This document shows, piece after piece, positions 901 to 44,137 of a stretch of DNA of 64,000 nt (its first letter is position 1; each line of letters starts with the position of its first letter). The translations under genes were made by a program, and so were the position numbers. Where the stretch lies: positions 62,001 to 126,000 of the forward strand of contig NZ_SDMQ01000002.1 of assembly GCF_004324755.1 (NCBI RefSeq). The letters are read 5' to 3'. The DNA is from Propioniciclava sinopodophylli (lineage in GTDB: Bacteria; Actinomycetota; Actinomycetes; Propionibacteriales; Propionibacteriaceae). The notes beneath the pieces were generated by a model. The model saw only the letters and a program-made list of their open reading frames with translations. It searched no databases and was not told where the DNA came from.

Positions 901-1030
901 GCGCCGAGAGCCCCGGGTTTCTGCGCCGAGAGCCCCAGTGTTCGGCGCCGAGAGCCCCGACACGTGCGCCGAGGCCTTGGGTTCGTGATCGAACCCAAGC
1001 CCTCGGCGGACTGAACCCAAGCCCTCGGCG
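901..1030. repeat. 22-bp tandem repeat array 1 (three intact and about three degenerate units)
   Basis: Three units with the core GCCGAGAGCCCC begin at 903, 925 and 947, exactly 22 bp apart, in + orientation. A degraded unit follows near 969. After a short centre, two inverted relatives (core AAGCCCTCGGCG, again 22 bp apart) end just before the mmdB stop. The array fills the whole gap between two convergent genes. The inverted tail could fold back on the degraded + unit (CCTTGGGTTCG against CGAACCCAAG). A terminator role is possible for this copy only, because other arrays lie between divergent genes. Confidence 0.85.
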
Positions 1031-2152
1031 TCAGCTGGCACCCATCAGGGCGAGCAGCACACCGCCGGCGACGACGGAGGCGACCTGGCCGGCCGCGTTC
1101 GCTCCCATGGCGTGCATCAGCAGGAAGTTGTCGAAGTTCTCCCGCTGCGCCTCACGCTGGACGACACGCGCCGCCATCGGGAAGGCCGAAATGCCGGCGG
1201 CACCGATCAGCGGGTTGAACTTGCCACCCGAGAACACGTTCATCAGCTTCCCGAACGAGACACCCATGACGGTGTCGAGCACGAACGCGATGAGGCCCAG
1301 CACCAGGATCATGAGGGTCTGCAGGTTGAGGAACTTCTCGCCGATCATCGTCGATCCGATGGCCAGGCCGAGGAACAGCGTGACGACGTTGGCGAGTTCG
1401 TTCGAGGACGCCCCCACCAGCCGCTCGACGACCTTCGACTCGCGCATCAGGTTGCCCAGCATCAGCATGCCGATCAGCGGCGTCGCGAACGGCACCAGCG
1501 TGCCGACGACGATCGTCACGATGATCGGAAACAGGATGCGCGTGCGCTGCGAGATCTCCCGCGACGTGTACGGCATCACGATGGCGCGCTCCTTGGCGGT
1601 CGTCAGCGCCCGCATGATCGGCGGCATGATGATCGGCACCAGGCTCATGTACGAGTAGGCGGCCACCGTGATGGGGGCGACCAGCTCGGGCGCGAGCTTG
1701 TTCGACACGTAGATCGACGTCGGCCCGTCGATGGCGCCGATGATGCCGATCGAGGCGGCCTGGTTGTGGTTGAACCCCAGGAACAGCGCCAGCAGCAACG
1801 TCAGGAAGATGCCGAACTGGCCGGCGGCGCCGAGCAGCACCATCTTCGGGTTCTCCAGCAGCGGCCCGAAGTCGGTCATGGCGCCGATGCCGACGAAGAT
1901 CAGCAGCGGGAACATCTCGTTGCCCACGCCCATGTCGTAGAGCGCCTGGAGCATGCCGTGCTCCCCCACCATCGGCGAGAGCGGCAGGTTCGCCAGGATC
2001 GCGCCCGAGCCGATGGGCAGCAGGAGCAGGGGCTCGTACTCCTTCTTGATCGCCAACCAGATCAGGAGCAGGCCGATGGCGATCATCGTCAGGCTCTGCC
2101 AGGTGACGTTGTTGATCCCCTGCAGCAGGTAGTGCAGTGTGTCCGGACTCAT
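1031..2152 (-). CDS. mmdB: Sodium-translocating decarboxylase beta subunit (methylmalonyl-CoA/oxaloacetate decarboxylase type)
   Basis: Integral membrane beta subunit of the Na+-pumping biotin-dependent decarboxylases (OadB/MmdB/GcdB family). It couples decarboxylation of carboxybiotin to Na+ export. The length of 373 aa is normal and hydrophobic segments run throughout. The family's key motif, GAIDGPTSIYVS, is at about residues 139-150, where the aspartate (D142) corresponds to the essential Na+/proton-binding Asp. A second conserved block reads AYSYMSLVPIIMPPIMRAL. It is the last gene of the mmdA-D-C-B operon, and its ATG follows the mmdC stop by 1 nt. Substrate assignment (methylmalonyl-CoA rather than oxaloacetate or glutaconyl-CoA) rests on the linked MmdA-like carboxyltransferase and is an inference. 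Confidence 0.9.
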   Translation of the reverse strand: MSPDTLHYLLQGINNVTWQSLTMIAIGLLLIWLAIKKEYEPLLLLPIGSGAILANLPLSPMVGEHGMLQALYDMGVGNEMFPLLIFVGIGAMTDFGPLLENPKMVLLGAAGQFGIFLTLLLALFLGFNHNQAASIGIIGAIDGPTSIYVSNKLAPELVAPITVAAYSYMSLVPIIMPPIMRALTTAKERAIVMPYTSREISQRTRILFPIIVTIVVGTLVPFATPLIGMLMLGNLMRESKVVERLVGASSNELANVVTLFLGLAIGSTMIGEKFLNLQTLMILVLGLIAFVLDTVMGVSFGKLMNVFSGGKFNPLIGAAGISAFPMAARVVQREAQRENFDNFLLMHAMGANAAGQVASVVAGGVLLALMGAS

Positions 2153-2153
2153 C

Positions 2154-2681
2154 TCAGGCCTCGAACCTCACCAGGGTCTCACCGAACTTCACCTGCTGGC
2201 CGGCCGCCACGTAGATCTCGGCGACGACACCGTCCTTGGGCGCCTTCAGCTCGTTCTTCATCTTCATGGCCTCGAGCACCATCAGCGAGTCGCCCCGCTT
2301 CACCGACGCCCCGACCGCCGTGTCCACGGTCAGGATCACGCCGGGCATGGGCACGGTCATCTTGTCGCGACCGCCACCACCGGCGGCGGCTGCAGCGCGG
2401 GGCCCCCCACCGGACGCCGCGGGCGCGGCCCCCTGCGCGGTCGCGGACGCCGCCGGGGCGTCCGATGCCAGCGGTGCGGACGCCGTGTGCGCGGCCGGGG
2501 CGGCGGACACGGCGCGCGGGGTCACCGCGGGCGTGATCGCCGAGTGGGCCAGGTCGCGGTGGTCGTCGAGCGTGACGTCGACGAGACGTCCGTCGATCTG
2601 GACGCGGAAGAGGTTGGCGCCGACGGCCTCGACGTCCACCACCTTGGACGTGTTGTTGACGCTGATCGTGTAGCGGCGCAT
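2154..2681 (-). CDS. mmdC: Biotin carboxyl carrier subunit of the decarboxylase
   Basis: A 175-aa biotin/lipoyl-attachment protein that carries CO2 as carboxybiotin from the carboxyltransferase to the membrane beta subunit. It has an N-terminal beta-rich stretch (1-45), a long Ala/Pro/Gly linker (about 46-106) typical of swinging-arm carriers, and a C-terminal biotinyl domain (108-175). The biotinylation motif EAMKM has its acceptor lysine at residue 140. Family comparison: the 1.3S subunit of propionibacterial transcarboxylase is homologous, so this protein could also serve that role, but its membrane partners argue for the decarboxylase. The SD sequence GGAGGT overlaps the stop of the upstream mmdD, which indicates translational coupling. 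Confidence 0.9.
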   Translation of the reverse strand: MRRYTISVNNTSKVVDVEAVGANLFRVQIDGRLVDVTLDDHRDLAHSAITPAVTPRAVSAAPAAHTASAPLASDAPAASATAQGAAPAASGGGPRAAAAAGGGGRDKMTVPMPGVILTVDTAVGASVKRGDSLMVLEAMKMKNELKAPKDGVVAEIYVAAGQQVKFGETLVRFEA

Positions 2682-2684
2682 GGC

Positions 2685-3125
2685 CTACCTCCGGGAGAAC
2701 GGGTTGGTCTGGTAGCCCCGGCCGACGGCGAGCCAGCGGCTCGCGAAGAGCTGGCTGCCGGGCGCGTGGGCGCGGGTCTCGGGGCCGGCGGACCGGCGTC
2801 GGATCTCGGCGTGCTGGATGACGGCGACCGTGATCGCCGCGACCTGGTTCTCGTCCAGTCCGTCGGCAATGATCCGGACGGCGCGGGCTGCGGGCTTGGC
2901 CACGGCGTCCTTCGTCGGGTCGTCCTCACCCGGCATGATCGTGACCAGCTCCCGCTCGGGATCGCCCTTGCGGGCCTTGAGCGTGGGCGCCCCGGTCCCG
3001 TCGAGGCGTCCGATGAGCATCAGGACCGCCATGAGGGCCAGCAGCAGCGCGAAGACCACGCCCATGCCGACGACCATCATCATCAGGCCCCAGGAGATGT
3101 CATCCATCGTGGGGAGACTTGGCAT
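2685..3125 (-). CDS. mmdD: OadG/MmdD-like delta subunit, membrane anchor of the decarboxylase
   Basis: A 146-aa small subunit with one N-terminal transmembrane helix (about residues 10-40, Met/Val/Leu-rich) and a charged cytoplasmic tail. This is the architecture of OadG/MmdD subunits, which hold the complex together at the membrane. The tail contains the VAAITVAVIQ segment often found in this family and ends in a basic stretch. The ATG at 3125 has an SD (AAGGAG) that overlaps the TAA stop of mmdA, so the start is well supported. Assignment is by architecture and operon position, because this family is weakly conserved in sequence. Confidence 0.8.
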   Translation of the reverse strand: MPSLPTMDDISWGLMMMVVGMGVVFALLLALMAVLMLIGRLDGTGAPTLKARKGDPERELVTIMPGEDDPTKDAVAKPAARAVRIIADGLDENQVAAITVAVIQHAEIRRRSAGPETRAHAPGSQLFASRWLAVGRGYQTNPFSRR

Positions 3126-3134
3126 CGGGGCTCC

Positions 3135-4679
3135 TTAAACCGGGAAGAGGCCGTGCTTCTTCGGGATGGTCTGCGTGACCTTGGTCCGCAGCACCTCGAG
3201 GGCACGGATCAGGCGCGGACGGGTCTCGCGAGGCTCGATGACCTCGTCGATCTGGCCCACGTCGGCGGCCTGGTAGGGGTTGAAGAACTTCTTTTTGTAC
3301 TCGGCGATGAACCGGGCCTCCTCGGCCTTCGGGTCCTCGGCTGCCTCGATGCCCCGGCGGTTGAGCAACCGCGCGGCGCCCTCGGCACCCATGACGGCGA
3401 TCTGGGCCGACGGCCACGCGAACGCGACGTCGTTGTTCATTTGCTTCGAGCTCAGCGCCACGTACGAGCCGCCGTACGCCTTGCGCGTGACGATCGAGAT
3501 CTTCGGAACCGTCGCCTGGCAGTAGGCATAGATGATCTTCGCGCCGTGGCGGATCACGCCGTTGTACTCCTGCTCGACACCCGGCAGGTAGCCCGGGCAG
3601 TCGACGAACGTGATGAGCGGGATGTTGAACTGGTCGCACAACGTGATGTGGCGGGCGATCTTGTCGGACGCGTTGATGTCCAGGCAGCCGGACATGACCT
3701 GCGGGTTGTTCGCGATGATGCCGACAGCGTGGCCGTCGAGGCGGGCGAAGCCGACCAGCGCGTTGGCCGCCCAGTCGCTGTGCAGGCCGAACAGGGAGTC
3801 GCGGTCGAAGATGCGGGCCAGCAGGTCGCGCATGTCGTACGGCATGTTGTCGTCGGCCGGGATGAGGGTGTTCAGGCCCTCGTCCATGCGGTCGGCCGGG
3901 TCGTACGGCTCGAGCTGCGGCGGGTCCTCGGTGTAGTTCTGCGGCAGGTAGCTGAGCAACTGCTTGGTCTTGCGCAGCGCGTCCGCCTCGTCGGAGGCCA
4001 TGACCTGCGCGACACCCGAGGTGGCGTTGTGCACCCAGGCGCCACCGAGCTCTTCGGCGGTGACGTCCTCGCCCGTGACGGTCTTGATGATGTCGGGGCC
4101 GGTGAGGAACATGTTCGAGGTCTGGTCGACCATGATCGTGATGTCGGTCAGGGCCGGGCTGTACACCGCGCCGCCGGCGCAGGGGCCCATGATCAGTGAC
4201 AACTGGGGCACCACGCCGGACGCCTTGACGTTGCGGACGAACACCTCGCCGTAGGCGGCCAGCGAGCGGACGCCCTCCTGGACGCGCGCGCCACCGGAGT
4301 CGTTCAGGCCGATGACGGGGATGCCGGCCTGGATGGCAAGGTCGAGGATGCGGGAGATCTTGTTGCTCTGCACCTCGGAGAACGAGCCGCCCAGCACGGT
4401 GAAGTCCTGGGCGTAGACCGCCACGCGACGGCCGCCGATCTTGCCGAAGCCGGTGATGATCCCGTCACCGGGGAAGCGGTTCTTGTCCATCCCGAAGTCG
4501 GTGTTCTGATGGGTGGCGAGGGCGCCAAGCTCCTGGAAGGAGGCCTCGTCGAGGAGGATCGACAACCGCTCGCGCGCGGTGAGCTTGCCCTTGGCATGCT
4601 GGGCCTGGATACGCTGGGTTCCACCACCCTCTAGCGCCTGCTGCCTCTTCTCGCGCAACGTCGCCAGTTGATCTGTCAT
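3135..4679 (-). CDS. mmdA: Methylmalonyl-CoA decarboxylase alpha / acyl-CoA carboxyltransferase subunit
   Basis: A 514-aa carboxyltransferase of the PccB/MmdA/transcarboxylase-12S family. It transfers CO2 between an acyl-CoA (probably methylmalonyl-CoA) and biotin on the carrier protein. The two crotonase-like halves are visible: DFTVLGGSFSE (about 92-102), GLNDSGGARVQEG (124-136) and GPCAGGAVYSPALTD (165-179) in the first, and FVDCPGYLPG with RKAYGGSYVAL in the second. The C-terminus ends KKHGLFPV as in relatives. The frame opens upstream to 4754, but the ATG at 4679 fits the family N-terminus and has a GAGG about 10 nt upstream. It heads a four-gene operon with mmdD, mmdC and mmdB, which points to Na+-pumping decarboxylation rather than propionyl-CoA carboxylation (no biotin carboxylase is linked). 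Confidence 0.85.
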   Translation of the reverse strand: MTDQLATLREKRQQALEGGGTQRIQAQHAKGKLTARERLSILLDEASFQELGALATHQNTDFGMDKNRFPGDGIITGFGKIGGRRVAVYAQDFTVLGGSFSEVQSNKISRILDLAIQAGIPVIGLNDSGGARVQEGVRSLAAYGEVFVRNVKASGVVPQLSLIMGPCAGGAVYSPALTDITIMVDQTSNMFLTGPDIIKTVTGEDVTAEELGGAWVHNATSGVAQVMASDEADALRKTKQLLSYLPQNYTEDPPQLEPYDPADRMDEGLNTLIPADDNMPYDMRDLLARIFDRDSLFGLHSDWAANALVGFARLDGHAVGIIANNPQVMSGCLDINASDKIARHITLCDQFNIPLITFVDCPGYLPGVEQEYNGVIRHGAKIIYAYCQATVPKISIVTRKAYGGSYVALSSKQMNNDVAFAWPSAQIAVMGAEGAARLLNRRGIEAAEDPKAEEARFIAEYKKKFFNPYQAADVGQIDEVIEPRETRPRLIRALEVLRTKVTQTIPKKHGLFPV

Positions 4680-4835
4680 CAGGTACAACCTCGTCCTCGA
4701 GTGCTGGAGTCGCCGATCGACTACTACGCACCGTAGCAACCCGCGTCCGGGCACGTCGTCCCGGGCCCGATCGGCTCACGACCCGGACGAAAAGTGCCCA
4801 ACCCGTGGACTGTTGCGCGACAACTGCGGCAACAC

Positions 4836-4869
4836 GCCGACAGCCCCGGTCGCGTCGGCCGAGGGCCCC
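4836..4869. repeat. Two-unit array of the 22-bp repeat family
   Basis: Two degenerate units have cores GCCGACAGCCCC (4836-4847) and GCCGAGGGCCCC (4858-4869), exactly 22 bp apart and in + orientation. They occupy the gap between the mmdA start and the DUF456 stop at 4874. Register and core match the larger arrays, which supports common origin despite three substitutions in total. With array 1 it brackets the mmd operon. Confidence 0.6.
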
Positions 4870-4873
4870 CGGG

Positions 4874-5368
4874 TCACCCGATGAGGTGGGTGATGATGCC
4901 GACCAGCAGCGTGGCGGCGGCGCACAGCGCGAGGGCGAGTTCCACAAGCATGCCCAGGCCAACCGACTTCAGGGCCGTCCAGGACGTCGACGCGGCCTCC
5001 CGGAGGTTGCGCACACGCGCGTACTCCGAGGCGAGCAGGCCGATGGTGAACCCGATCGGCAGGCCCAGGAAGGGGATCACAAACAGGCCGATCACGCCCG
5101 CGACCAGTCCGATGATCACCGAGCGGTTCGGGATGGCACGCTCCTTGAGCCGACGTCCGGTGATCAGGTACTGCGCGCTCGCGCCCGCCGCGACGAACGT
5201 CGCGCCGATCCCGAACACCAGCCAGCCGAACGGGGAGCCGCCCCAGATCGCCCAGACCAACAACCCGCCGAGGATCGCCAGGCTCCCCGGCAGCACGGGG
5301 ACGACGATCCCGCACACGCCGACGACGACGAGCACGACCGACAGGGCGGCGATCAGTTCCACGGGCAT
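4874..5368 (-). CDS. DUF456 family membrane protein
   Basis: A 164-aa hydrophobic protein of the DUF456 family, whose biochemical function is unknown. It shows about four to five membrane segments and the family's glycine/proline-rich blocks: PVLPGSLAILGG near residue 25-36, and a glycine-rich FLGLPIGFTIGLLASEY block past the middle. The ATG at 5368 is preceded by TAGCCT and a 6-nt gap, so a leaderless transcript is likely and the start is supported. It lies between the mmd operon and a secreted AMIN-like protein, all on the minus strand, but its own promoter separates it from the latter. Confidence 0.8.
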   Translation of the reverse strand: MPVELIAALSVVLVVVGVCGIVVPVLPGSLAILGGLLVWAIWGGSPFGWLVFGIGATFVAAGASAQYLITGRRLKERAIPNRSVIIGLVAGVIGLFVIPFLGLPIGFTIGLLASEYARVRNLREAASTSWTALKSVGLGMLVELALALCAAATLLVGIITHLIG

Positions 5369-5396
5369 CGGGCAAGGCTACCGTCTTGCGCAGGCG

Positions 5397-5434
5397 CCTG
5401 CGGCCCCCGCCCCGGTCGGGGCGGAGGCCGCAGG
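5397..5434 (-). terminator. Strong GC hairpin after the AMIN-like gene
   Basis: A near-perfect inverted repeat (CCTGCGGCC pairing with GGCCGCAGG, plus an inner CCGCCCCG/CGGGGCGG) with a 2-nt apex lies between the stop of the AMIN-like gene and the DUF456 start. No U-tract follows, so it is a hairpin-type terminator candidate as is usual in high-GC genomes. Confidence 0.6.
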
Positions 5435-5474
5435 CCGTGTCACCGTCGTCCGACGCCCGGCGACACACCGAGGC

Positions 5475-6038
5475 TCACCAGCGGTGGGCCACGTCGATCA
5501 CGAGTCGGGCGGAGGATCCGTCGTCGAGCACGAACACCCGGAAGGGGAGGCGCGCCCGCACGCCGAGCCCCAGGGTGCTCTGCCCCTCGAACGAGCCAGC
5601 CCAGGCCACCTGGCGGAAGGTGTCGAAGCCCGTCACGTCGGTCAGGTCCGTCACGCTGGCGGGCCGGTAGGTGGGCCGGCCCCACGCGTCGTACGCCGGG
5701 GCACGCACGATGACCTGCAGCTTCGCACCACCGCGCAACGGCACGCGGTACCCGGAACCGTCCTGGTAGACGTTGTCGACGTACCGCACCGAGTAGCCGG
5801 CCGGCGTGCTGCCCTTGAGGTCGATGACGAGCCGGTCGTAACAGGCGTGGCGGCCGGTCCGGACATGGGTCAGCACCTGGTCCTGGTGCGTGCCGGATGC
5901 CTTGGTGAGGGATCCCCAGGTGATTCCGCAGTAGGGGGTGGCGGCTTCGGCCGCGGGCAGGGACGCCGGCAGGACCAGCGCCAGGAGGCTCGCCGCGAGC
6001 ACGACGGCCAGGCGGCGGAGCATCGTCAGGGTGGACAT
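5475..6038 (-). CDS. Secreted AMIN-like domain protein
   Basis: A 187-aa exported protein. Residues 1-32 form a Sec signal peptide (basic n-region MLRR, hydrophobic core, cleavage around AEA). The mature part has the pattern of the actinobacterial AMIN-like beta-sheet domain: HVRTGRHACYDRLVIDLKG near its start, then PLRGGAKLQVIVRAPAYD, and at the end LPFRVFVLDDGSSARLVIDVAH. Related AMIN domains bind peptidoglycan or help localise envelope proteins, but no function has been shown for this group, so the role is unknown. The start has an SD (GAGGAG) about 8 nt upstream, and a strong hairpin follows the stop. Confidence 0.75.
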   Translation of the reverse strand: MSTLTMLRRLAVVLAASLLALVLPASLPAAEAATPYCGITWGSLTKASGTHQDQVLTHVRTGRHACYDRLVIDLKGSTPAGYSVRYVDNVYQDGSGYRVPLRGGAKLQVIVRAPAYDAWGRPTYRPASVTDLTDVTGFDTFRQVAWAGSFEGQSTLGLGVRARLPFRVFVLDDGSSARLVIDVAHRW

Positions 6039-6116
6039 GGCTGACTCCTCTCGTGGGGCCCGGGGGTCGGGGCCCTCACACCCTGTAGACGCCCGCGCGG
6101 CCGGAAAGGTTACGCC

Positions 6117-7718
<1,602 letters not shown>

Positions 7719-7775
7719 GTGGGCCGAGTCTACCGCTACCGGGGCTTCGCCAAGTTCAGCCGCCCGGGTGGGGGC

Positions 7776-8996
7776 TCAGCCAGCCGCGCGCGACAACTCC
7801 ACCAGCGACTCGTGGGCCAGCGCCGCGTAGACGACCATGGCCTCGGCGATCGGTTCGTCGTCGAACCACGCTGTCGCGGAGTGGTTGTAGGACGTGTCGG
7901 CCATGCTGCTGCCCCGCGGGACGCCCGAGTAGAACAGGAACGCCCCGGGTACGCGGGCCAGCACCTCGGAGAAGTCCTCCGAGCCGCCGAGCGGCTCCTC
8001 GAGCACCGAGTAGCGCTCCCCCACCAGGCCGCCCACGACGCGGCCGACGAAGTCGACGACCTCAGGGTCGTTGACGGTCGGCGAGACGCCCAGGCGGTAG
8101 TCGACCTCGGCGCGGCACCCGTGCGCGGACGCGATCCCCTCGATCAGCTGGGTGATCAGCGGCCGCACGCGCTCGCGCGCACCGGCCGAGAAGGTCCGGA
8201 TGGACATCTCCAGGTGGCACTTCTCCGGAATGATGTTGGCCGCCCCGCCGGCGTTCGCCACCCCCACGTTCACGATGATCGGGTCGGCGTTGCTGAACTT
8301 CTTCGCGATCATGGTCTGAATCGCGAGGATCACCTCCGCCATCACCGGCACCGGGTCGTTGCCCATGAACGGTGCCGAGCCGTGCCCACCGCGTCCGATG
8401 ATGTCGACCGCGACCAGGTCGGACGCCGCCATCAGCGTGCCGGGCCGCGTCGTCCACGTGCCGGGCGCGAAGTTGGCCGAGAAGGTGTGCAGGCCGAACG
8501 CCCGGTCGACGGTGCGGCCGGCGGCCTCGAGGACGCCCTCGGCGAGCATGTGGTTGGCCCCGCTGAGCACCTCCTCCCCCGGCTGGAACATGAACACGAT
8601 GTCTCCGGGCAGCTCGTCGCGGTGCGCGTGGAGCAGCTTGGCGGCCCCCACCAGAGTCGCGGTGTGCACGTCGTGGCCGCAGGCGTGCATGTGCCCGTCG
8701 CGCTCGGACGCGAACGGCATGCCCGTCTCCTCCTGCACCGGCAGGCCGTCCATGTCGCCGCGCAGCAGCACGACCGGCTTGTCGGCGGACGCCCCCGCGC
8801 CACCCCTCAGCACGGCCGTGACCGACGTGGTGGCCTCGCCCGTCGTGACCTCCAGGTCGAGCCCCGCCAGCGCCTCGAGCACCGCCGCCTGGGTGCGCGG
8901 CAGGTCGTTGCCGATCTCCGGCCAGCGGTGCAGCCGGTGGCGCAGGTCGGTGATCTCGGCGGCGAGTCCGGCGGCTTCGGCGAGGTAGTCAGGCAT
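7776..8996 (-). CDS. M20 family amidohydrolase
   Basis: A full-length (406 aa) M20D-type zinc amidohydrolase of the hippurate/N-acyl-amino-acid hydrolase group. The metal and catalytic motifs are present: RGDMDGLPVQEETG, HMHACGHDVHTATL (C and H ligands), FQPGEEVLSGA (Glu pair), the lid-domain GRGGHGSAPF, GGSEDFSEV, and the final Asn/His region SYNHSATAWFDD. The frame extends to 9059, but the ATG at 8996 matches the family N-terminus and lies 7 nt after TAGACT, so the longer start is rejected. It is transcribed divergently from the AI-2E family transporter. It is a paralogue of the truncated gene at the window's left edge. Confidence 0.88.
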   Translation of the reverse strand: MPDYLAEAAGLAAEITDLRHRLHRWPEIGNDLPRTQAAVLEALAGLDLEVTTGEATTSVTAVLRGGAGASADKPVVLLRGDMDGLPVQEETGMPFASERDGHMHACGHDVHTATLVGAAKLLHAHRDELPGDIVFMFQPGEEVLSGANHMLAEGVLEAAGRTVDRAFGLHTFSANFAPGTWTTRPGTLMAASDLVAVDIIGRGGHGSAPFMGNDPVPVMAEVILAIQTMIAKKFSNADPIIVNVGVANAGGAANIIPEKCHLEMSIRTFSAGARERVRPLITQLIEGIASAHGCRAEVDYRLGVSPTVNDPEVVDFVGRVVGGLVGERYSVLEEPLGGSEDFSEVLARVPGAFLFYSGVPRGSSMADTSYNHSATAWFDDEPIAEAMVVYAALAHESLVELSRAAG

Positions 8997-9072
8997 GGCC
9001 CCGAGTCTAGGACGCCGCACCGCCAGTCGTGCGTCCGCCGATCTTGTCCGGTCGACCACCTAGGGTGTGCTC

Positions 9073-10194
9073 ATGGAGCAGACGCAGCGCCCCCCGGTGA
9101 TGCCCAGCATCGCCGTCATCCTGCTCACCGTGACGGCCGGCATCGTGGTCCTGTTCGGCATGCGCCAGTACGCAGACATCCTGGGCCCGTTGCTGCTCAC
9201 GGTGAACCTCTTCATCGCCGCCTACCCCGTCTACACGTGGCTGGTCTCACTGAAGGTGCCGCGGCTCCTGGCCCAGGTCGTCCTCGCCCTGACGGTGTTC
9301 GCGATCCTTGCGCTCTTCGCCTACGCGCTGACGTGGTCGTTCACCGCGCTGGTGCAGGAGCTGCCCCGCTACCAGCCCCAGTTCTGGAAGCTGTACCACG
9401 AGGTCGTCGCCCTGATGGCGCAGTTAGGCATCTCCGAGCAGCAGGTCGTCGACCAGGTCAAGGGCGTCAACCCCAGCAGCCTCGCCGGGCTGCTCTCCAG
9501 CGCGCTGGGCAGCGTCACCAACGTGGTCTCGCTGCTGGCTGTCATCGTGGTGATGGTCTTCATGATGGCCTTCGACTCCGAGACCTTCGGCGACCGCAAC
9601 CACCTGCTGCGGCGCCACCAGCCCCGCGTGTGGCACTCGATCGCCGACTTCATCGCGGGCGTCCGCCGCTACTGGGTCGTGACCTCGATCTTCGGCCTCA
9701 TCGTGGCGGTCATCGACGTCATCGCCCTGGAGTTCCTGGGCGTCCCGCTGGCGATGGTGTGGGGCATCCTCAGCTTCATCACGAACTACATCCCGAACGT
9801 GGGCTTCGTGATCGGCCTCGTGCCGCCGGCCATCATGGCGCTGCTGGCCAACGACCCGCTCACCGCGCTGCTGGTGGTGATCATCTACTCGGTGGCCAAC
9901 TTCGTCATCCAGTCGATCATCCAGCCCAAGTTCAACGGGGACGCCGTGGGCATCACCGCGCTCGTCTCGTTCCTGTCTCTGCTCCTGTGGAGCTCGGTCC
10001 TCGGCGCCCTCGGGGCGCTGCTGGCCCTGCCGATGACGCTGCTGGCCAAGGCGGTGCTCGTCGACCACGACCCGCAGATGCGCTGGGTGAACGCGTTCAT
10101 CTCCAACGAGCCGGCCTCCGCCGACCCCGTGCCGGAACCGGCCCAGCCCGAACTGCCGCTGGACGACCCCGACCCGGGCCCCGCCACGGCTTGA
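9073..10194 (+). CDS. AI-2E family transporter (UPF0118 membrane permease)
   Basis: A 373-aa polytopic membrane protein of the AI-2E exporter family. It has about seven to eight membrane segments, with conserved central stretches DFIAGVRRYWVVTS and GVPLAMVWGILSFITNYIPNVGF, and ends in an acidic Pro-rich tail (about 345-373). Family members export small molecules such as autoinducer-2 or act as Na+/H+ antiporters, and the substrate here is unknown. The ATG at 9073 is exactly 6 nt after a TAGGGT box (9061-9066), which favours it over the in-frame GTG at 9067. A strong bidirectional hairpin follows the stop. Confidence 0.85.
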   Translation: MEQTQRPPVMPSIAVILLTVTAGIVVLFGMRQYADILGPLLLTVNLFIAAYPVYTWLVSLKVPRLLAQVVLALTVFAILALFAYALTWSFTALVQELPRYQPQFWKLYHEVVALMAQLGISEQQVVDQVKGVNPSSLAGLLSSALGSVTNVVSLLAVIVVMVFMMAFDSETFGDRNHLLRRHQPRVWHSIADFIAGVRRYWVVTSIFGLIVAVIDVIALEFLGVPLAMVWGILSFITNYIPNVGFVIGLVPPAIMALLANDPLTALLVVIIYSVANFVIQSIIQPKFNGDAVGITALVSFLSLLLWSSVLGALGALLALPMTLLAKAVLVDHDPQMRWVNAFISNEPASADPVPEPAQPELPLDDPDPGPATA

Positions 10195-16979: not shown

Positions 16980-17105
16980 ACGCCGAGAGCCCCGGCGTTA
17001 CGCGTCGAGAGCCCCGGTGTTACGCGCCGAGAGCCCCGGCGTTACGCGTCGAGAGCCCCGGTGCTGGGCGTCGAAAGCCCCGGTGTTGGGCGTCGAGAGC
17101 CCTTC
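16980..17105. repeat. 22-bp tandem repeat array 2 (six units, + orientation)
   Basis: Six units occur with CCCC tracts starting at 16990, 17012, 17034, 17056, 17078 and 17100 (last one truncated to CCC). The exact 22-bp spacing is maintained. The core reads GYCGAGAGCCCC, alternating GCCGAG and GTCGAG. The variable part is mostly GGYGTTACGC, changing to GGTGTTGGGC in later units. The array lies between divergent sufR and the nuclease-like gene at 17197. Confidence 0.9.
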
Positions 17106-17196: not shown

Positions 17197-18099
17197 ATGC
17201 ACCAGTTGAACAGCTCATCCGACCGTCCGCTCACCAGGATCAAGCTCCGCCCAGGCGTGTTCCTCGACGAACCGCCAGCCGACCCGTACGCCCTCCACCT
17301 CAAGCGCGTCGAGGCCCGGCTCCCCCACCTCCGGCCGGGGAGCTACTTTGCGCGCGCCTCAGCGGCGCTCATCCACGGGCTGCCGATCTTCCATGCCGAC
17401 CTCGACCGGGTGCACGTCGTCCACACCGGCGGCGGGCACGGCCGCATCACCACCTCCGGACACTCCTTCACGACGCCGCTCCGTGACCCGTCCGTGGTCA
17501 AGGTCGACGACCTCCCGGTCACCTCACTCGCACGCACGGCGTCCGACATGATGCGGCGCACGCTGTTCGGGCCGGCGCTCGCGATCGCGGACGCCGCCCT
17601 GCGGCTCGGGTGCGACCGGGCCGAGTTGCTGGACGAGGTACGCGGAGGGCGGGGCTGTCGGCATGCGACCGAGGCCGCTCTGCGCGCGACCCCACTGAGC
17701 GAGTCGGCCTACGAATCACTCGTGCGCGGTCACATCCTGCAGTCGGGCATCCCGATGCCGCTGCTCCAGCACGAGTTCGTGGACGCCTGGGGTCTCCTGC
17801 TGGGGCGCACGGACTTCTTCTGGCGCGAGTTCGGGCTAGTCGGCGAGTTCGATGGCGCGATCAAGTACGACGAGTTGCTGCGTCCCGGCGAGACGGTCGC
17901 CGATGTCCGGAGGCGTGAGTACGAACGGCAGCGGCGCATCGAGGGTCAGAACGTGCGCTTCGTCCGATGGACGGCCGAGGACGTCCACACACCGGGCGCG
18001 ATCCTCGCCTCGCTGCAGCCGTTCATCGGCGACCACCGCGTCGACCACGGCATGTGCCCGGAGGCCCACGACCTCCGGCGCCCGCGTCGGCGCGGCTGA
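17197..18099 (+). CDS. AbiEi/DUF559-like protein with nuclease-type C-terminal domain
   Basis: A 300-aa protein of a type widespread in Actinobacteria. Its N-terminal half resembles the AbiEi-like winged-helix/antitoxin-associated region (RASAALIHGLP, then HVVHTGGGHGR and VTSLARTASDM). Its C-terminal half has the Vsr/DUF559-like pattern GRTDFFWREFGLVGEFDGAIKY, in which the D, E-x-D-G and K positions of a PD-(D/E)xK fold are all kept. It may therefore be an active nuclease, but function is not known and the family is often annotated only as hypothetical. A CACTGT box 6 nt before the ATG suggests a leaderless transcript. It is flanked immediately by array 2 upstream and array 3 downstream, in opposite orientations. 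Confidence 0.7.
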   Translation: MHQLNSSSDRPLTRIKLRPGVFLDEPPADPYALHLKRVEARLPHLRPGSYFARASAALIHGLPIFHADLDRVHVVHTGGGHGRITTSGHSFTTPLRDPSVVKVDDLPVTSLARTASDMMRRTLFGPALAIADAALRLGCDRAELLDEVRGGRGCRHATEAALRATPLSESAYESLVRGHILQSGIPMPLLQHEFVDAWGLLLGRTDFFWREFGLVGEFDGAIKYDELLRPGETVADVRRREYERQRRIEGQNVRFVRWTAEDVHTPGAILASLQPFIGDHRVDHGMCPEAHDLRRPRRRG

Positions 18100-18100
18100 A

Positions 18101-18226
18101 GGGGCTCTCGGCACACGAACCCGGGGCTCTCGACACACGAACCCGGGGCTCTCGACACAGAAACCCGGGGCTCTCGGCACAGAAACCCGGGGCTCTCGGC
18201 ACACGAACCCGGGGCTCTCGGCGGAG
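18101..18226. repeat. 22-bp tandem repeat array 3 (six units, - orientation)
   Basis: Six units start at 18101, 18123, 18145, 18167, 18189 and 18211, exactly 22 bp apart. The + strand shows GGGGCTCTCGGC or GGGGCTCTCGAC followed by a variable stretch (ACACGAACCC or ACAGAAACCC). The variable stretch alternates between the two forms along the array. It begins 1 nt after the stop of the nuclease-like gene and ends about 100 nt before hppA1. Confidence 0.92.
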
Positions 18227-30665: not shown

Positions 30666-30792
30666 GGGGCTCTCGGCGCCCACCACCGGGGCTCTCGGCG
30701 GACAGGACCGGGGCTCTCGGCGCCCACCACCGGGGCTCTCGGCGCCCACCACCGGGGCTCTCGGCGGACAGGACCGGGGCTGTCGGCGCAGG
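30666..30792. repeat. 22-bp tandem repeat array 4 (six units, - orientation)
   Basis: Units start at 30666, 30688, 30710, 30732, 30754 and 30776, with exactly 22-bp spacing. The + strand core is GGGGCTCTCGGC, and GGGGCTGTCGGC in the last unit. The spacer-like part has two alternative forms, GCCCACCACC (A) and GGACAGGACC (B), in the order A-B-A-A-B. It occupies most of the 322-bp gene-free stretch between divergent ctaB and tal. The rest of that stretch (30793-30910) holds the tal promoter and leader. Confidence 0.93.
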
Positions 30793-35251: not shown

Positions 35252-35268
35252 GCCTGGCGGCTCCCGGG

Positions 35269-35625
35269 TCAGTAGATGACCTCGCCGGCGGCGCGACGGG
35301 CGCGCAGGCCGGCCAGCGCCTCGGCCAGGATGGCCTCGGCCTCGGCGTCCGTACGGCGCTCCTTCACGTAGGCGAGGTGCGTCTTGTACGGGGTGATCTT
35401 CGGCGGGGGCGGTGGGTTCTCCGAGTCCAGGTTGGCCGGCAACCCGCAGCGGGGGCAGTCCCACTCCTCGGGGAGCACGGCGTCCGCAGCGAAGGCGGGG
35501 CGCGTCTCGTGCCCGTTGCTGCAGTAGAAGGACACGTACAGGCGAGGCGCGGAATCGCCGCGCTCGGCCTCGCCCATGGGACCCGCACCGACGCGGCTGC
35601 CACGGATGGCGCTACCACCGACCAC
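35269..35625 (-). CDS. rbpA: RNA polymerase-binding protein RbpA
   Basis: A 118-aa actinobacterial transcription factor that binds the principal sigma factor and stabilises open complexes. It shows the zinc-binding pattern YCSNGHETRPAF ... WDCPRCGLPA and a C-terminal sigma-interaction helix (EAILAEALAGLRARRA). Starts at GTG 35625 with an SD AAGGAG. The neighbours secG, tpi and pgk on the same strand are the usual actinobacterial order. Confidence 0.93.
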   Translation of the reverse strand: MVGGSAIRGSRVGAGPMGEAERGDSAPRLYVSFYCSNGHETRPAFAADAVLPEEWDCPRCGLPANLDSENPPPPPKITPYKTHLAYVKERRTDAEAEAILAEALAGLRARRAAGEVIY

Positions 35626-35673
35626 TGTTGAGAACTCCTTGGCTCGTTGCTGAGTAGAGGGTTGCCGCCGGCC

Positions 35674-35955
35674 TCAGCCGAGGACGCCCACGTCGGGGAA
35701 CCAGCGGTAGAGGGCGAGCAACAAAAGGATGCTCGCCAGCCAGACCAGGCCGATGACGATCGTCAACCGGTCCAGGTTCCGCTCGGCGACCGAGGAGCCC
35801 CCCATGGTGGTGGACATGCCGCCACCGAAGAGGTCGGACATGCCGCCGCCCCGGTTCTTGTGGAGCAGCACGAACATGGCCAGGGCCAGGGAGGTCACGA
35901 CGAGGAGGATCGAGACAGTCAAGATCGGCCAGGTCATGAGGGGAGCGATGGTCAC
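35674..35955 (-). CDS. secG: SecG preprotein translocase subunit
   Basis: A 93-aa SecG with two transmembrane helices (about 10-30 and 60-82) joined by the Gly/Ser-rich loop HKNRGGGMSDLFGGG, which is diagnostic for the family. The GTG at 35955 lies 6 nt after TAGAAT (rc of 35962-35967). This supports it as a leaderless start over the ATG 18 nt downstream. Separated from tpiA by a hairpin. Confidence 0.9.
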   Translation of the reverse strand: MTIAPLMTWPILTVSILLVVTSLALAMFVLLHKNRGGGMSDLFGGGMSTTMGGSSVAERNLDRLTIVIGLVWLASILLLLALYRWFPDVGVLG

Positions 35956-35977
35956 CGCACGATTCTAACCCACGCAC

Positions 35978-36011
35978 AAGGGGCCGATGACCATGTGGTC
36001 ACCGGCCCCTT
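35978..36011 (-). terminator. Hairpin between tpiA and secG
   Basis: A 9-bp stem (AAGGGGCCG with CGGCCCCTT) continues, after one mismatch, into a 5-bp inner stem with a 4-nt loop. It lies 20 nt after the tpiA stop and just upstream of the secG promoter, so it probably ends the gap-pgk-tpiA transcript. No U-tract. Confidence 0.65.
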
Positions 36012-36031
36012 GGCTCGTGCTGAGAGGTGTC

Positions 36032-36814
36032 TCAGTTCTGATAGAAGAGGACGATCTTGGCGAACTCCTCCGGGTCGAGGCTCGCCCCGCCGACCAGAGC
36101 GCCGTCGACGTCGGTCTGGGCCATGATGTCGACGATGTTGCCGGACTTCACCGATCCGCCGTACTGGATGCGGACGGCGTCCGCGGCCTCCTGGCCAACG
36201 AGCTCGGCCACGCGGGCACGGATCGCTCCACAGACCTCCTGCGCGTCGTCGGGGGTCGCGACCTCGCCGGTGCCGATGGCCCAGACGGGCTCGTAGGCGA
36301 TGACGAGGGAGCCGACCTGCTCACCCGACAGGTCCGCAAGGACCTTGTCGACCTGGGCGAGCACGAACGGGACCTGCTCGCCGGCCTTGCGGACGTCGAG
36401 CTTCTCCCCCACGCAGATGATCGGCGTCATCCCCGCCGCGAGGACGACCTTCGCCTTCTCGTTGATCAGCTCGTCGCTCTCCGCGTGGTAGTCGCGACGC
36501 TCGGAGTGGCCGACGACCACGTACGAACAGTTGAGCTTGGCCAGCATCTCGGCCGAGATCTCACCGGTGTAGGCGCCCGACGCGTGCACCGAGACGTCCT
36601 GCGCGCCGTAGGTGAGCGGCAGCTTGTCGCCCTCCACCAGCGTCTGGACGGTGCGCAGGTCGGTGAACGGCACGATGACCGCGGCCTGGGCCTGCTCGGG
36701 GTCGTACTTCGCGTCCTTCAAGGACCACGCCAGCTTCTGGACGACGCCAGCCGCCTCGACGTGGTTGAGGTTCATCTTCCAGTTGCCCGCCATGAGCGGG
36801 GTGCGATTCGACAC
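36032..36814 (-). CDS. tpiA: Triosephosphate isomerase
   Basis: A 260-aa TIM that interconverts dihydroxyacetone phosphate and glyceraldehyde 3-phosphate. Landmarks are AGNWKMN near the start (lysine), [12 protein letters not shown] with the catalytic His, and [11 protein letters not shown] with the catalytic Glu. The phosphate-binding GGSVK lies near the C-terminus. Starts at GTG 36814, 6 nt after pgk, with an SD GAAGGGA. Confidence 0.96.
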
Positions 36815-36820
36815 CGTTGA

Positions 36821-38023
36821 TCAGTTCCCTTCGAGGACGTCGAGGCCCGGGAGCGTCTTGCCCTCCAGGTACTCCAGCGACGCGCCGCCGCCGGTCGAGA
36901 TGTGGCCGAACGCGTCATCGGGGAAGCCGAGCTGGCGGACGGCCGCGGCGGAGTCACCGCCACCGACGACGGTGAACGCGTCGGTGTCGGCCAGCGCCTG
37001 GGCGACGGCCTTGGTGCCGGCGGCGAAGTCATCGACCTCGAACACGCCCATCGGGCCGTTCCAGAAGACGGTCTTCGCGCCCATGATTGCGTCGGCGTAC
37101 GCCTTGGCGGTCTCGGGGCCGATGTCGAGGCCCATCTGATCGGCCGGCATCGAGTCGGACGCCACGGTGGTCTTCTCGAAGGGGCCGTCCCCGGACGGGA
37201 AGCTCGGCGACACGACGGCATCGGACGGGATGAGGAGCCCCTTGCCTGCAGCCTCGGCATCCTTCATGTAGCCGGTGACGGTGTCGATCTTCTCGGCGTC
37301 CAGCAGCGAGGTGCCGACCTCGTAGCCCTTGGCCTTCAGGAAGGTGTAGCCCATCCCGCCACCGATGATCAGGGTGTCGGCGACCTTGAGCAGGTTGTCG
37401 ATGACCGACAGCTTGTCGGCGACCTTGGCGCCGCCGAGGACGACGACGTAGGGGCGCTGGGGGGTCTCGGTGAGCTTCTTCAGCACCTCGACCTCCTTGG
37501 CGACGAGGTGGCCGGCCGCGTTCGGCAGCAGCTTGGCGACGTCGTAGACCGAGGCCTGCTTGCGGTGCACGACGCCGAAGCCGTCGGAGACGAACACGTC
37601 GCCGAACTCGGCGTACTTGGCCGCGAGGGCCTCGCGCTCGGCGTCCACCTTGGACTCCTCGGCGGGCTCGTAGCGGACGTTCTCGAGCATGACGATGTCG
37701 CCTTCGGCCATGCCGGCGACGGCCCCCTTGGCGGACTCGCCGACGACGTCACCGGCGAGGGTGACCTTGGCGTCGATGAGCTCCCCCAGCCGCTTGGCGG
37801 CCGGGGCGAGCGAGTACTTCGGGTTGACCTCACCCTTGGGGCGACCCAGGTGAGCCATCACGACGACCTTCGCGCCGGCCTCCGTGAGCTGCTTGAGCGT
37901 CGGGAGGGCCGCCTTGATCCGGCCGTCGTCGGTGATGGTCTCGCCGTCCAGCGGGACATTGAAATCGCAGCGGATCAGGACGCGCTTGCCCTTGAGATCC
38001 CCGAGATCGTTGATGGACTTCAC
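36821..38023 (-). CDS. pgk: Phosphoglycerate kinase
   Basis: A 400-aa glycolytic kinase that makes ATP and 3-phosphoglycerate from 1,3-bisphosphoglycerate. It has [29 protein letters not shown], the hinge and nucleotide region [19 protein letters not shown], and [16 protein letters not shown] with DHIS-like [17 protein letters not shown] at the C-terminus. Starts at GTG 38023 with SD AAAGG. Middle gene of gap-pgk-tpiA. Confidence 0.96.
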
Positions 38024-38062
38024 CTGGGTTCGCCTTTCAGGATGCGGTTGGGTTGAGGACGA

Positions 38063-40218
<2,156 letters not shown>

Positions 40219-40228
40219 GCGGGCCAGC

Positions 40229-41185
40229 CTAACGTCCCATCAAATCGGCATAGACGCCGGCGAGACGGTTGACGTCGTGCCGGGGCCTGCCGTCGGTGGC
40301 CCGGACGGGCGTGACCACCAGCTCGGCCCCGAGCGAGGCGGCGTAGGTGGCCAGGTGCTTGTCGCCTCGGGCGTAGGTGGGGTCGCAGACGATGGTGTCC
40401 AGGCGCAGCCGGGGCGCGTGGTCGGCCAAGGCCTCCAGGTGGGTGGACGCCGTGAAGCCGGCCGTCTCGTCGGCCGCCACGAGGTTCAGGGTGAGGATGC
40501 GGCGGGCGTTCGTGGTGACGATGGCCTCGCCCAGTTCGGGGACCAGCAGGTGCACCAGCACGGACGTGAACCACGAGCCGGGCCCGAGCACCACGAAGTC
40601 GGCGGCGTGGATGGCCTCGACCGTCTCCGGGCAGGCGGGCGGGGCCGAGGGCAGCAGCCGCACCTCGCGGACGACGCCCGGGCACTTCGCCACCCGCGCT
40701 TGCCCGCGGATGTGGGTGACCTCGTCGGGGCGCTCCGGGTCGACGCCGATCACGTCCGCCTCGATCTCCAGCGGGACAGCCGCCATCGGCAGCACGCGGC
40801 CCTGGACGCCCAACAGCTTGGCCACCATGTCCAGCCCGGAGACGGGGTCACCGAGGCGCTCCCAGATGCCGGCGATCAGCAGGTTGCCGATGGCGTGGCC
40901 GGCCAGTGGGCCCTCGCCGCCGAACCGGGACTGCAGCACGTCGGCCCACATGCGGCCCTCGCGGTCGTCGCCGCAGAGGGCGGCCAGGGCCATCCGCAGA
41001 TCGCCGGGCGGCAGGATGTCGAACTGGGCGCGCAGGCGTCCGGACGACCCCCCGTCGTCTGCGACCGTCACGACGGCGGTGAGGTCACTGGTGACGCGCC
41101 GCAGCGCGCGCAGGGACGCGGCCAGGCCGTGCCCTCCCCCCATCGCGACGACGGCGGGCAACCCCGGGTCGAGCGTCGGGGTCAT
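40229..41185 (-). CDS. yvcK: YvcK/CofD-like UDP-GlcNAc-binding protein
   Basis: A 318-aa protein of the YvcK (GlmR) family, CofD-like fold. Relatives bind UDP-GlcNAc and influence peptidoglycan precursor supply and gluconeogenic growth. It has the N-terminal [29 protein letters not shown] and [20 protein letters not shown] blocks. The ATG overlaps the rapZ stop (ATGA), as in other rapZ-yvcK-whiA clusters. Confidence 0.93.
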
Positions 41186-42045
41186 TCCAGCCCCAGGTCC
41201 CTGTGCAGCACATGGACGCCGTAGCCCGCCTCCCGCAGGCGTCGGGACAGCTCCTCCGACATCGCCGTCGAACGGTGCTTGCCGCCCGTGCAGCCCACCG
41301 CGACCGTGGCCAACCGCTTGCCCTCACGCTCGTAGCCGGGCATGACCGTGCGCAGCATCGCCTCGACCGAGTCGAGCCAGGGACCGGCGGCGTCCTGCCC
41401 GAGCACGTACGAGGACACCGACTTGGACAGGCCGGTCTGCGGGCGCAGTTCCGGCACCCAGTGCGGGTTCGGCAGGAAGCGTACGTCGAGCACCATGTCG
41501 GCGTCGATCGGGATGCCGTTCTTGAAGCCGAACGACATGACGGTGAGGCGCAACTCCCGGTCGTCCGAGGTGTTGAAGGCGTACGCAACTCGGTTGGCCA
41601 GCTGGTGCACGTTGATGTCGGAGGTGTCGATCACCAGGTCGGCAGCGCCGCGCAGGGTGGCCAGCAGGTGGCGCTCGCGGCGGATACCGTCCAGCAGCCG
41701 TCCGTCGCCCTGCAGTGGGTGCGGACGCCGGACGTGCTCCTGGCGCTTCACGATGACCTGGTCGGACGCCTCCAGGAACAGGATCTGCGGCCACACGCCG
41801 TGGGCGTTCAAGGCGTCGAAGGCGGCCGGGATCTGGTCGAACTCAGAGCGGGTACGCACGTCGAGGACGACCGCGACCTTGTCGAAGCCGGAGTCTGTGA
41901 CGGTCTGGACGAGCTCGTCCAGCAGGGTGGGCGGCAGGTTGTCGACGACGTACCAGCCGAGGTCCTCCAGGGCGTGGGCCGCAGTGCGGCGTCCGGCGCC
42001 CGACATTCCGGTGATGGCGACGAAGCGGGTGGAGGGAACGCTCAT
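41182..42045 (-). CDS. rapZ: RapZ-family nucleotide-binding protein
   Basis: A 287-aa RapZ/YvcJ family P-loop protein. The Walker A reads GMSGAGRRTAA, with Arg in place of the usual Lys, as is common in actinobacterial homologues. The C-terminal half contains HKSTAMSEELSRRL-like CTGGKHRSTAM. In E. coli RapZ guides RNase to GlmZ sRNA. The actinobacterial role is not known to involve that RNA. Starts 7 nt after the uvrC stop, so it may be cotranscribed with uvrC. Confidence 0.92.
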   Translation of the reverse strand: MSVPSTRFVAITGMSGAGRRTAAHALEDLGWYVVDNLPPTLLDELVQTVTDSGFDKVAVVLDVRTRSEFDQIPAAFDALNAHGVWPQILFLEASDQVIVKRQEHVRRPHPLQGDGRLLDGIRRERHLLATLRGAADLVIDTSDINVHQLANRVAYAFNTSDDRELRLTVMSFGFKNGIPIDADMVLDVRFLPNPHWVPELRPQTGLSKSVSSYVLGQDAAGPWLDSVEAMLRTVMPGYEREGKRLATVAVGCTGGKHRSTAMSEELSRRLREAGYGVHVLHRDLGLE

Positions 42046-42052
42046 GCCGCCA

Positions 42053-44011
42053 TCATGTCAGTTCGACCTCGCCGGTGGCCGTGTTCAGCGCCTCTCCCGG
42101 CTGCTGCTGGTCGAGGGCGGCCTTGACGGCCTCGGCGGTCTTGCGGCCGAAGCCCGGGACGAGCGCGATCTCCTCGACGTCGGCGGCACGCAGCTTCTTG
42201 AGGCTGCCGAAGTGCTTGATGAGGGCCTTGCGGCGCAGCTCCCCCAGCCCGGGCACGGCGTCGAGCAGCGAGTCGACCATCGACTTGCTACGGCGTCCGC
42301 GGTGGTGGGTGATCGCGAAGCGGTGCGCCTCGTCGCGGGCACGCTGGAGCAGGTACAGGCCCTCGGACGCCCGGGGCAGGATCAGCGGGAACTCGTCGTC
42401 GGGCAGCCAGACCTCCTCCAGGCGCTTGGCCAGCCCGACCAGGGGTACGTCGGTGATGCCGAGGGCGTCCATCGCGGCCTTGGCGGCGGCGACCTGGGGG
42501 GCGCCGCCGTCGACGACGACCAGGCTCGGTTTGTAGGCGAACTTGCGGGCCGCGCCCGTGGTGGCGTCGACGAGCATGGCGTCGGAGCCGGTCAAGGACT
42601 CCTGGTCCTCCAGGTAGCGGCGGAAGCGGCGGGTGATCACCTCGTGGATGCTGCCCACGTCGTCGGAGCCCTCGACGGTGCGGATGATGAAGCGGCGGTA
42701 CTCGGCCTTGCGGGCCAGGCCGTCCTCGAAGACGACCATCGACCCGACCACCTCGGTGCCCTGCAGGTGGGAGATGTCGTAGCACTCGATGCGCAGCGGC
42801 GGGGCGTCCAGGCCGAGGGCATCCTGCAGTTCCTCCAGCGCGCGGTTGCGGGTGGAGAGGTCGGAGGCCCGCTTGGTCTTGTGCAGAACCAGTGCCTCGC
42901 CGGCGTTGCGTGCGACGGTGTCCATGAGGACGCGCTTGTCGCCGCGCTGGGGGACGTGCACGGTGACGCGGCTGCCCCGGACGTCGCTGAGCAGGCCGGA
43001 CAGGGCCGTGCCGGACGCCGGTTTCACCGGCACCAGCACTTCACGCGGGATGCCCCCGGAGATGCCGGCGAGGTCGGGGTCGGCATACAGCTGGAGGCAG
43101 AAGTTCTCGACCAGCTCCTCCAGTGTGGAGTCGTCGGCGCGGTCGGCGACCCAGCCGCGCTCGCCCTGGACGCGGCCGTGGCGGACGTGGAACACCTGGA
43201 TGGCGACCTCGAGCTCGTCGGCGGCCAGGGCAATGACGTCGGCGTCCGTCGCGTCGCCCAGCACGATGGCGTTGCGCTCCGTGGCGGACGTGAGCGCGGC
43301 GAGCTTGTCGCGCAGGACGGCGGCGCGCTCGAACTCCAGCTCGTCGGAGGCCTGCATCATCGCCTGCCGGACGCGGCGGATGAGGTGGTTGGTGTTGCCG
43401 GCCAGGAAGTCGCAGACGTCGCTGACGAGCTCGCGGTGGGCGTCCGGGTCGATCCAGTTGACGCACGGGGCCGAGCACTTGCCGATGTGGGCCAGCAGGC
43501 AGGGGCGTCCGGACGCCTTGGCGTTGCGGAAGACGCCGTTGGTGCACGAGCGCATCGGGAAGACGCGCAGCAGGGAGTCGATGGTCTCGCGGATCGCCCA
43601 CGCCTGCGCGTAGGGGCCGTAGTAGCGGTTGCCCTTGCGCTTGGCGCCCCGGCCCACGAACACGCGCGGGAACTCGTCGCCCCACGTGACGCACACCCAC
43701 GGGTAGGACTTGTCGTCGCGGTACTTGATGTTGAACCGCGGGTCGAACTGCTTGATCCACGTGTACTCGAGCTGCAGGGACTCCAACTCGTTCTGCACGA
43801 CGGTCCACTCCACCTTGGACGCGGTGCGCACCATCGTCTGCGTCCGGAAGTGCAGCGAGTGCGGATCGGCGAAGTAGGAGTTGAGCCGCTGGCGGAGGTT
43901 CTTGGCCTTGCCGACGTAGATCACGGTGCCCGAGGGGTCGCTGAACCGGTAGACGCCGGGCTGGGTCGGGATCGTGCCGGGCGCCGGTCGGTAGGACGCC
44001 GGGTCAGCCAT
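42053..44011 (-). CDS. uvrC: UvrC, excinuclease subunit C
   Basis: A 652-aa nuclease that makes both incisions in nucleotide excision repair. It has an N-terminal GIY-YIG domain ([26 protein letters not shown], about 19-44), a Cys-rich segment ([21 protein letters not shown]), a UvrB-interacting UVR motif region ([19 protein letters not shown]), an RNase H-like C-terminal domain ([14 protein letters not shown]) and tandem helix-hairpin-helix motifs ([22 protein letters not shown]). The ATG at 44011 follows TAAGCT by 7 nt. The frame continues to 45106 through array 5, which is rejected. Confidence 0.95.
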
Positions 44012-44032
44012 GCGCGCCAGCTTAGGTCCCCC

Positions 44033-44137
44033 TGCCGACAGCCCCGGGCTTGGCCGCCGAGAGCCCCGGCCCTGTGCGCCGACAGCCCCGGTGTTGTGCG
44101 CCGACAGCCCCGGTGTTGTGCGCCGAGAGCCCCGTTC
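44033..44137. repeat. 22-bp tandem repeat array 5 (five units, + orientation)
   Basis: CCCC tracts start at 44042, 44064, 44086, 44108 and 44130, spaced exactly 22 bp. Core GCCGAGAGCCCC alternates with GCCGACAGCCCC. The variable part is GGTGTTGTGC in the central units. The array begins about 10 nt upstream of the uvrC -10 box, where the -35 region of that promoter would lie. Confidence 0.9.

Follow-up and report, generated by a model that had tools for sequence, protein, structure and literature searches.

The stretch analysed here, referred to as the window, comprises 64,000 nucleotides of the 3.07-Mb draft genome of Propioniciclava sinopodophylli, family Propionibacteriaceae (genome G000, contig C22, positions 62001-126000). 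It contains six sites with blocks of a directly repeated 22-bp unit. At one place, two such blocks of the family called A enclose a single gene. An open reading frame (ORF) of 300 aa at 17197..18099 (+) lies exactly between two inverted six-unit blocks. The left flank of this block-gene-block unit is at 16982..17103 (+), with its last two units weak, and the right flank is at 18101..18222 (-). The gene caller preferred a GTG start at 17257. The encoded protein is AbiEi-like, and we consider it the candidate cognate protein of the A family. A preliminary description of this DNA had reported the six sites but missed this key feature. The sites themselves are real: with one mismatch at most, the window contains 27 copies of the 12-bp core GCCGAGAGCCCC, where 2.17 would be expected, and this number was not attained in any of 100 shuffles.

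A protein search in 13 genomes of the genus listed 35 matches, 30 of them with loci (a first scan of genome contigs with the window protein gave no match). We defined close homologs by an identity of at least 49%. They are eight of the 30 loci, counting the window gene, and all eight have 22-bp units beside them. In six, these are A- or B-type blocks detected by pattern. The other two carry variant units, found by reading and a lag test: GCCGAGGACTCG (G000, contig C11, one side) and GCCGAGGACCGG (G007, contig C132, both sides). Bracketing by two inverted blocks with their heads outward is present in five of the six close homologs with both flanks readable; the remaining two are cut by contig ends. 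In contrast, none of the 22 distant homolog loci has an A or B block within about 1.5 kb. Similarity at lag 22 beside two of them (L290 and L296) consists of other sequence without an inverted partner, and was taken as chance. As background, 6 of 810 genes (window gene included) are bracketed, and 79 have any block within 300 bp. Close homologs are present in four of the 13 genomes, which hold 316, 65, 70, and 5 core pairs. Over the 13 genomes, a Fisher test of gene against blocks gives P = 0.0014, and P = 0.0070 when G012 is scored as a contrary case; these values are rough, with related genomes treated as independent.

The tree of 28 homologs places the eight close homologs in one clade (support 100/99). 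The four B genes form a subclade (99/99), and C groups with D (97/93). Both subclades match the core type, and the tree leaves A and A' unresolved. By our own reading of the flanks, the four B genes adjoin the enolase start, and the C, D, and A' genes occupy another common locus. The AbiEi-like gene is subject to purifying selection. The ratio of nonsynonymous to synonymous rates (dN/dS) is 0.08-0.16 within the B group; A compared with B gives 0.34, and C compared with D gives 0.36.

The unit of the window stands at the sufR locus. The distance from sufR to the next gene is 1395 bp in G000 versus 229-376 bp in its sisters, measured between tblastn ends. In all eight sister species with both neighbours found (of 11), this gap holds neither gene nor blocks. 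A 57-aa match of the protein in G003 (33%) overlaps sufR on the other strand and was taken as noise. This is one case of a whole unit that one species has and the corresponding gap of its sisters lacks. The simplest reading would be that the unit arrived whole; loss in all sisters is the alternative.

The window protein presents the motif SESxxE...DF.W...GEFDGxxKY. Its part SESxxE...DF.W...GEFDGxxK is kept in seven of the seven array-clade rows that reach it. SESxxE..DF..GEFDGxxK may correspond to the acidic-acidic-xK motif of PD-(D/E)XK nucleases; the Pfam support for this is limited to a sub-threshold DUF559/MTES_1575 in one relative. The likeness to the AbiEi family (type IV antitoxin regulators) consists of a weak match to the PADLOC AbiEi profiles (best E 5.1e-6, residues 45-148) and of distant relatives that carry AbiEi_4 and AbiEi_1; one of these also has a sub-threshold MTES_1575/DUF559. 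AbiEi_4 is found at E <1e-4 or close in five of seven distant relatives scanned, and it has no match at E up to 10 in four array-clade proteins. The array clade differs from the family in other respects. In the alignment it lacks the N-terminal stretch that is the winged helix-turn-helix (wHTH) of its relatives, and it has the C-terminal nuclease-like motif and a common C-terminal tail near MCPEAHD. A search for viral relatives of the window protein was unproductive.

The repeats are abundant outside the window. The strict A core pair occurs 152 times in G000, in blocks spread over the genome, and not at all in the reversed control. A second 22-bp family, B, has 106 strict pairs, and a third small family, C, coexists with both. 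The core of the C paralog is dispersed in 1.45 Mb of G000, with three pairs and 16 single cores (control 0 and 0). We found 73 blocks of 2-9 units in 1.15 Mb, versus none in the reversed-sequence control, and 97 blocks in 1.45 Mb. The rigid 22-bp period of the preliminary description also holds: in the 1.15 Mb, of 203 nearest-neighbour cores no more than 120 bp apart, 201 are spaced by 22 bp. Likewise, in the intergenic DNA of contig C22 (374 kb), 24 of the 30 rows of Tandem Repeats Finder (TRF) have period 22.

Among 96 genomes searched, G000 included, the family is restricted to one clade of Propioniciclava. Pairs of a relaxed pattern number 316 in G000, 65 in G001, 70 in the uncultured Propioniciclava metagenome-assembled genome (MAG) G008, 5 in G007, and 3 in G012. 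One pair each is present in G002, G026, G030, and G063, and none in the rest; the reversed control gives single matches in three genomes. An A-type pattern was found in 45 genome-contig stretches, 30 in the MAG and 15 outside the genus, in 14 genomes. Some of these 15 are short unrelated tandem repeats, and their examined DNA has no homolog of the AbiEi-like protein. One, a Streptomyces neyagawaensis contig (L150), holds four 22-bp units with core GCCGACAGCCCG and no protein homolog in the examined DNA. No viral contig has the strict A-type pattern. Plasmids gave no match to the window unit and two weak matches to the AbiEi-like protein. The viral contigs and plasmids searched thus give no indication that a phage or plasmid carries the family. 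Single hairpins were counted at five places in G000 (control 1) and at control level in the other genomes. A literature search, with most subscription journals outside its reach, found no report of this 22-bp family or of a nuclease-linked repeat of such kind.

In G000, the A unit consists of GCCGASAGCCCC and a 10-bp spacer, repeated directly and non-palindromic in itself. The pattern GG..TT.TGC is retained in most A spacers (62-97% at each position), and therefore units of different blocks are related across the full 22 bp. The likeness of spacers within blocks, described before, is correct, but they are not free to differ between blocks. A block begins with its head, a strong core preceded by C, and the cores tend to weaken toward the tail. 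Several blocks close with an inverted core after exactly 5 bp. In G000, 28 of 33 pairs of neighbouring blocks at most 1.5 kb apart are head-out, although one of these pairs (C2 85911/87304) passes over a weaker inverted block, at 86016, seen by a second detector; in the MAG, seven of eight pairs are. At 1.5-5 kb, the count in G000 is 3 of 13. With the second detector, 11 of 12 neighbours within 200 bp are head-out. The enclosed DNA ranges from 5 bp up to single complete genes, and many blocks have no close inverted partner. One further pair, C22:332280-332892 (613 bp), consists of two inverted A blocks around 457 bp without a clear gene; G001 has 13 bp there.

The remaining sites of the window follow this anatomy with variations. 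Site 901-1030 is mixed. It has an A block at 903..958 (+) with three units (903, 925, 947), whose head is 6 bp past the stop of ORF 21-896. A single B-like core at 968..979 (+) follows 21 bp after the last A core. Then comes a B block at 996..1029 (-) with two inverted units (996, 1018); its head and the ORF 1031-2152 stop are 1 bp apart. The A block at 4836..4869 (+) has two imperfect units with cores 22 bp apart, 4 bp from the stop of a DUF456 gene. The MAG also has an A-type block in this gap, in identical orientation. TRF reports period 22 at the other five sites and does not list this two-unit one. The A block at 30666..30787 (-) has six units in the divergent gap between UbiA-family and transaldolase-family genes. 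The last A block, at 44034..44133 (+), has five units and lies upstream of uvrC, at 22 bp from its predicted start. A single shared core does not account for the whole of site 901-1030. The three arrays of six units are as described, with the weak units noted above. A search of the whole window against Rfam gave no family at its gathering score.

We examined the placement of the blocks relative to genes in three fully read G000 contigs (49 sites; genes from our own gene caller, coding fraction 0.87). The sites are in 24 tandem, 11 convergent, and 11 divergent gaps, and three are inside predicted genes. Per kb of gap, the density is 0.45, 0.40, and 0.30 for tandem, convergent, and divergent gaps, respectively. 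Arrays are thus present in all gap types, as stated earlier. A repeat peptide was rejected, because 46 of the 49 sites are intergenic and 22 is not a multiple of three; here too the preliminary description was right. In 17 of 61 cases, versus 6.35 expected, a head is at most 12 bp away from the stop codon of a gene that reads toward it; for tails the count is 8 versus 6.27. These expectations come from random placement and orientation within the same gaps. At C22:230603-230690, A units are within a predicted gene (ThiF-like by our own reading), and these units are missing in G001.

The blocks differ widely between species. Among 22 C22 sites or site pieces compared with a 400-kb stretch of G001, two have a multi-unit block there (beside 341.5-342.2 kb) and one has a 14-bp palindrome (293768); several of the compared sites are not clean empty sites, with the G001 gap long or one flank mapped only. 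The whole 400-kb stretch holds only four multi-unit clusters. The A core is GCCGASAGCCCC in G000 and mostly GCCGASAGCCYG in G001 and G008. This difference between species suggests that the A core is homogenised within each genome. At C22:293768-293941, eight B units form two inverted arms; G001 has only GCCGAGGGCTCGGC there, with flanks 96% identical, possibly a seed or a remnant. An identical A block of the G000 type stands at G000 C4:66471 and at G001 260963. Its flanks are 98-99% identical, above the other mapped sites, and it was perhaps transferred recently.

This arrangement recalls several known systems. It shares with REP/BIME/REPIN elements and their RAYT (TnpA-REP) proteins the dispersed, mostly intergenic repeats and the inverted head-out pairs (PMC2817692, PMC3116915). 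In the former, a gene flanked by inverted repeat copies, matched subtypes, and joint presence are the marks that tie RAYTs to REPs. In the latter, inverted doublets define REPINs. Here, likewise, the gene lies between two inverted copies of its own type (five of six, with at least one side in eight of eight), the subtypes of repeat and protein co-vary, and gene and repeats tend to co-occur. However, the RAYT repeat is palindromic with a GT(A/G)G head, and ours is a non-palindromic direct repeat in blocks of 2-9. The protein is also different, AbiEi-like with a nuclease-like motif. A RAYT/Y1 partner was rejected: PF01797 is found in none of the 13 genus genomes, and five of 14 control genomes are positive. 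As the Y1 (HUH) transposase is missing and the 22-bp unit is direct, the system is not a member of REP/RAYT. Nevertheless, it looks as if it works like one.

The ends of Tn7- and Mu-type transposons contain transposase sites that are repeated and measure about 22 bp. As in the blocks, each end has several direct sites, with the outermost best conserved, and the ends are inverted. However, the unit contains no transposase, some blocks stand alone or on either side of ordinary genes, and no strongly conserved terminal bases exist outside the core. DDE transposases of PF00665 number six in G000. In BldC operators, the number of direct repeats is also variable, but the sites are AT-rich and of 9 bp (PMC5859096), whereas our units are GC-rich and of 22 bp.

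We propose that the blocks are a mobile repeat family with its own gene, copied by the dedicated AbiEi-like, nuclease-like protein. We give this reading a probability of about 0.6. The founder unit would be a block with its head outward, an AbiEi-like gene with a restriction-nuclease-like C-terminal motif, and an inverted block with its head outward. The other blocks would be non-autonomous members of the family. Each such protein would recognise units of 22 bp that belong to its own subfamily (A, B, C, or D). Cleavage or strand transfer, with host repair, would copy blocks into other gaps, often just past stop codons, and the unit number would then shift locally by slippage or unequal recombination. 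The operation would be like that of REP/RAYT elements, but with an unrelated protein. What the data show is the anatomy of the repeats, their association with the gene, the match of subtypes, the one unit that G000 has and its sisters lack, and purifying selection; the binding of units by the protein, its nuclease nature, and its role in the spread are inferred.

Several observations weigh against this proposal. By our own reading of translations, many bracketed genes look housekeeping; a mobile unit made up of gene and repeats gives no reason to expect this. Target-site duplications could not be discerned at the blocks. For eight of 20 blocks of G001 or the MAG mapped to G000, the corresponding G000 gap also contains a block, which is not required of a family that is purely mobile; about 8% of gaps hold blocks as background (46 sites, 553 gaps). 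In these eight gaps, the block type differs (A versus B) in two and, by our own reading, the orientation in one. The single-contig genome G001 has A'-type blocks, yet no A-type gene was found in it. G012 has three B-type pairs and no close homolog, and in G000 the C gene is flanked by units on a single side. Variant cores were sought by eye beside close homologs only, and the 22 distant loci were searched with the A/B pattern and the lag test. As for the protein, Pfam and NCBIfam hold no fitting family, a PDB profile search gave one chance-level match and none of use, and the AlphaFold model from two sequences (predicted local distance difference test, pLDDT, 40.9) is too poor to use.

A different possibility is that the protein acts as a regulator for which the blocks serve as operators, with autoregulation and a dispersed regulon. 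It would bind cooperatively on direct repeats, as BldC does, and the blocks would grow by slippage, with no part in spread for the nuclease-like motif. The weak AbiEi matches and the AbiEi_4 regulator domain of several distant relatives are consistent with this, as are the eight of 20 block positions common to species. BldC binds variable numbers of direct repeats head-to-tail (PMC5859096). We consider this reading unlikely. The array clade is without the wHTH stretch but keeps the catalytic-like residues. The blocks are in every gap type and inside three predicted genes, and the 97 blocks in 1.45 Mb of G000 have few counterparts in G001.

We find three other readings far less credible. The preliminary description favoured a nucleoid or chromosome-domain protein, for which the gene would be incidental. 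A dedicated protein is likely, as it supposed, but specific support for this type of factor is missing, and we find it very improbable. The rigid two-turn phase would fit, and the longest G001 stretch without a core pair (C1 1509527-2482285, 0.97 Mb) is opposite the parS sites at 3.426 Mb. However, B blocks are present on contig C41 of G000, whose counterpart in G001 is at 1.90 Mb. A chromosome-domain pattern was rejected, because this terminus-side gap is not seen in G000, whose contigs are only partly ordered for a chromosome-scale comparison. Moreover, the family is confined to one clade, two of 22 sites have a block in G001, the A core varies between species, and the several core types go with a single gene clade. 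The blocks could also be neutral minisatellites that accumulated in gaps with no dedicated protein, associated with the gene by chance or hitchhiking. This would explain the likeness within blocks, the variable unit number, and the intergenic preference. This reading was already disfavoured and has little to recommend it: units stand at eight of eight close versus 0 of 22 distant homolog loci, 6 of 810 genes are bracketed as background, and head-out polarity is seen in 28 of 33 pairs. Finally, bidirectional transcription terminators agree with the heads clustered just past stops, and the paired B arms at 968-1007 fold alone into a strong hairpin. A terminator-only role was nevertheless rejected, as the preliminary description had argued, since sites are not confined to gene 3' ends. 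Eleven of 49 are in divergent gaps (0.30 per kb versus 0.40 and 0.45 elsewhere), and many blocks lack a close inverted partner. We regard the terminator reading as the most doubtful of all.

More tentatively, with the odds slightly below even, the mobile family proposed here may be a new class, in which repeats are kept and spread by AbiEi-derived, restriction-nuclease-like proteins without a transposase. The REP/RAYT layout would have been reached independently, and each paralog would own a 22-bp recognition unit, rewritten as the paralog diverges. The bracketed gene is a better candidate partner of the repeats than a nucleoid factor. With it, a dispersed repeat family gains a candidate gene, and the cause of the spread and homogenisation of such repeats can be put to the test. 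Should the protein act on the units, a function could be assigned to an actinobacterial protein family that is barely characterised. The matched genes and repeats of four species would then be a ready code of protein versus recognition sequence.

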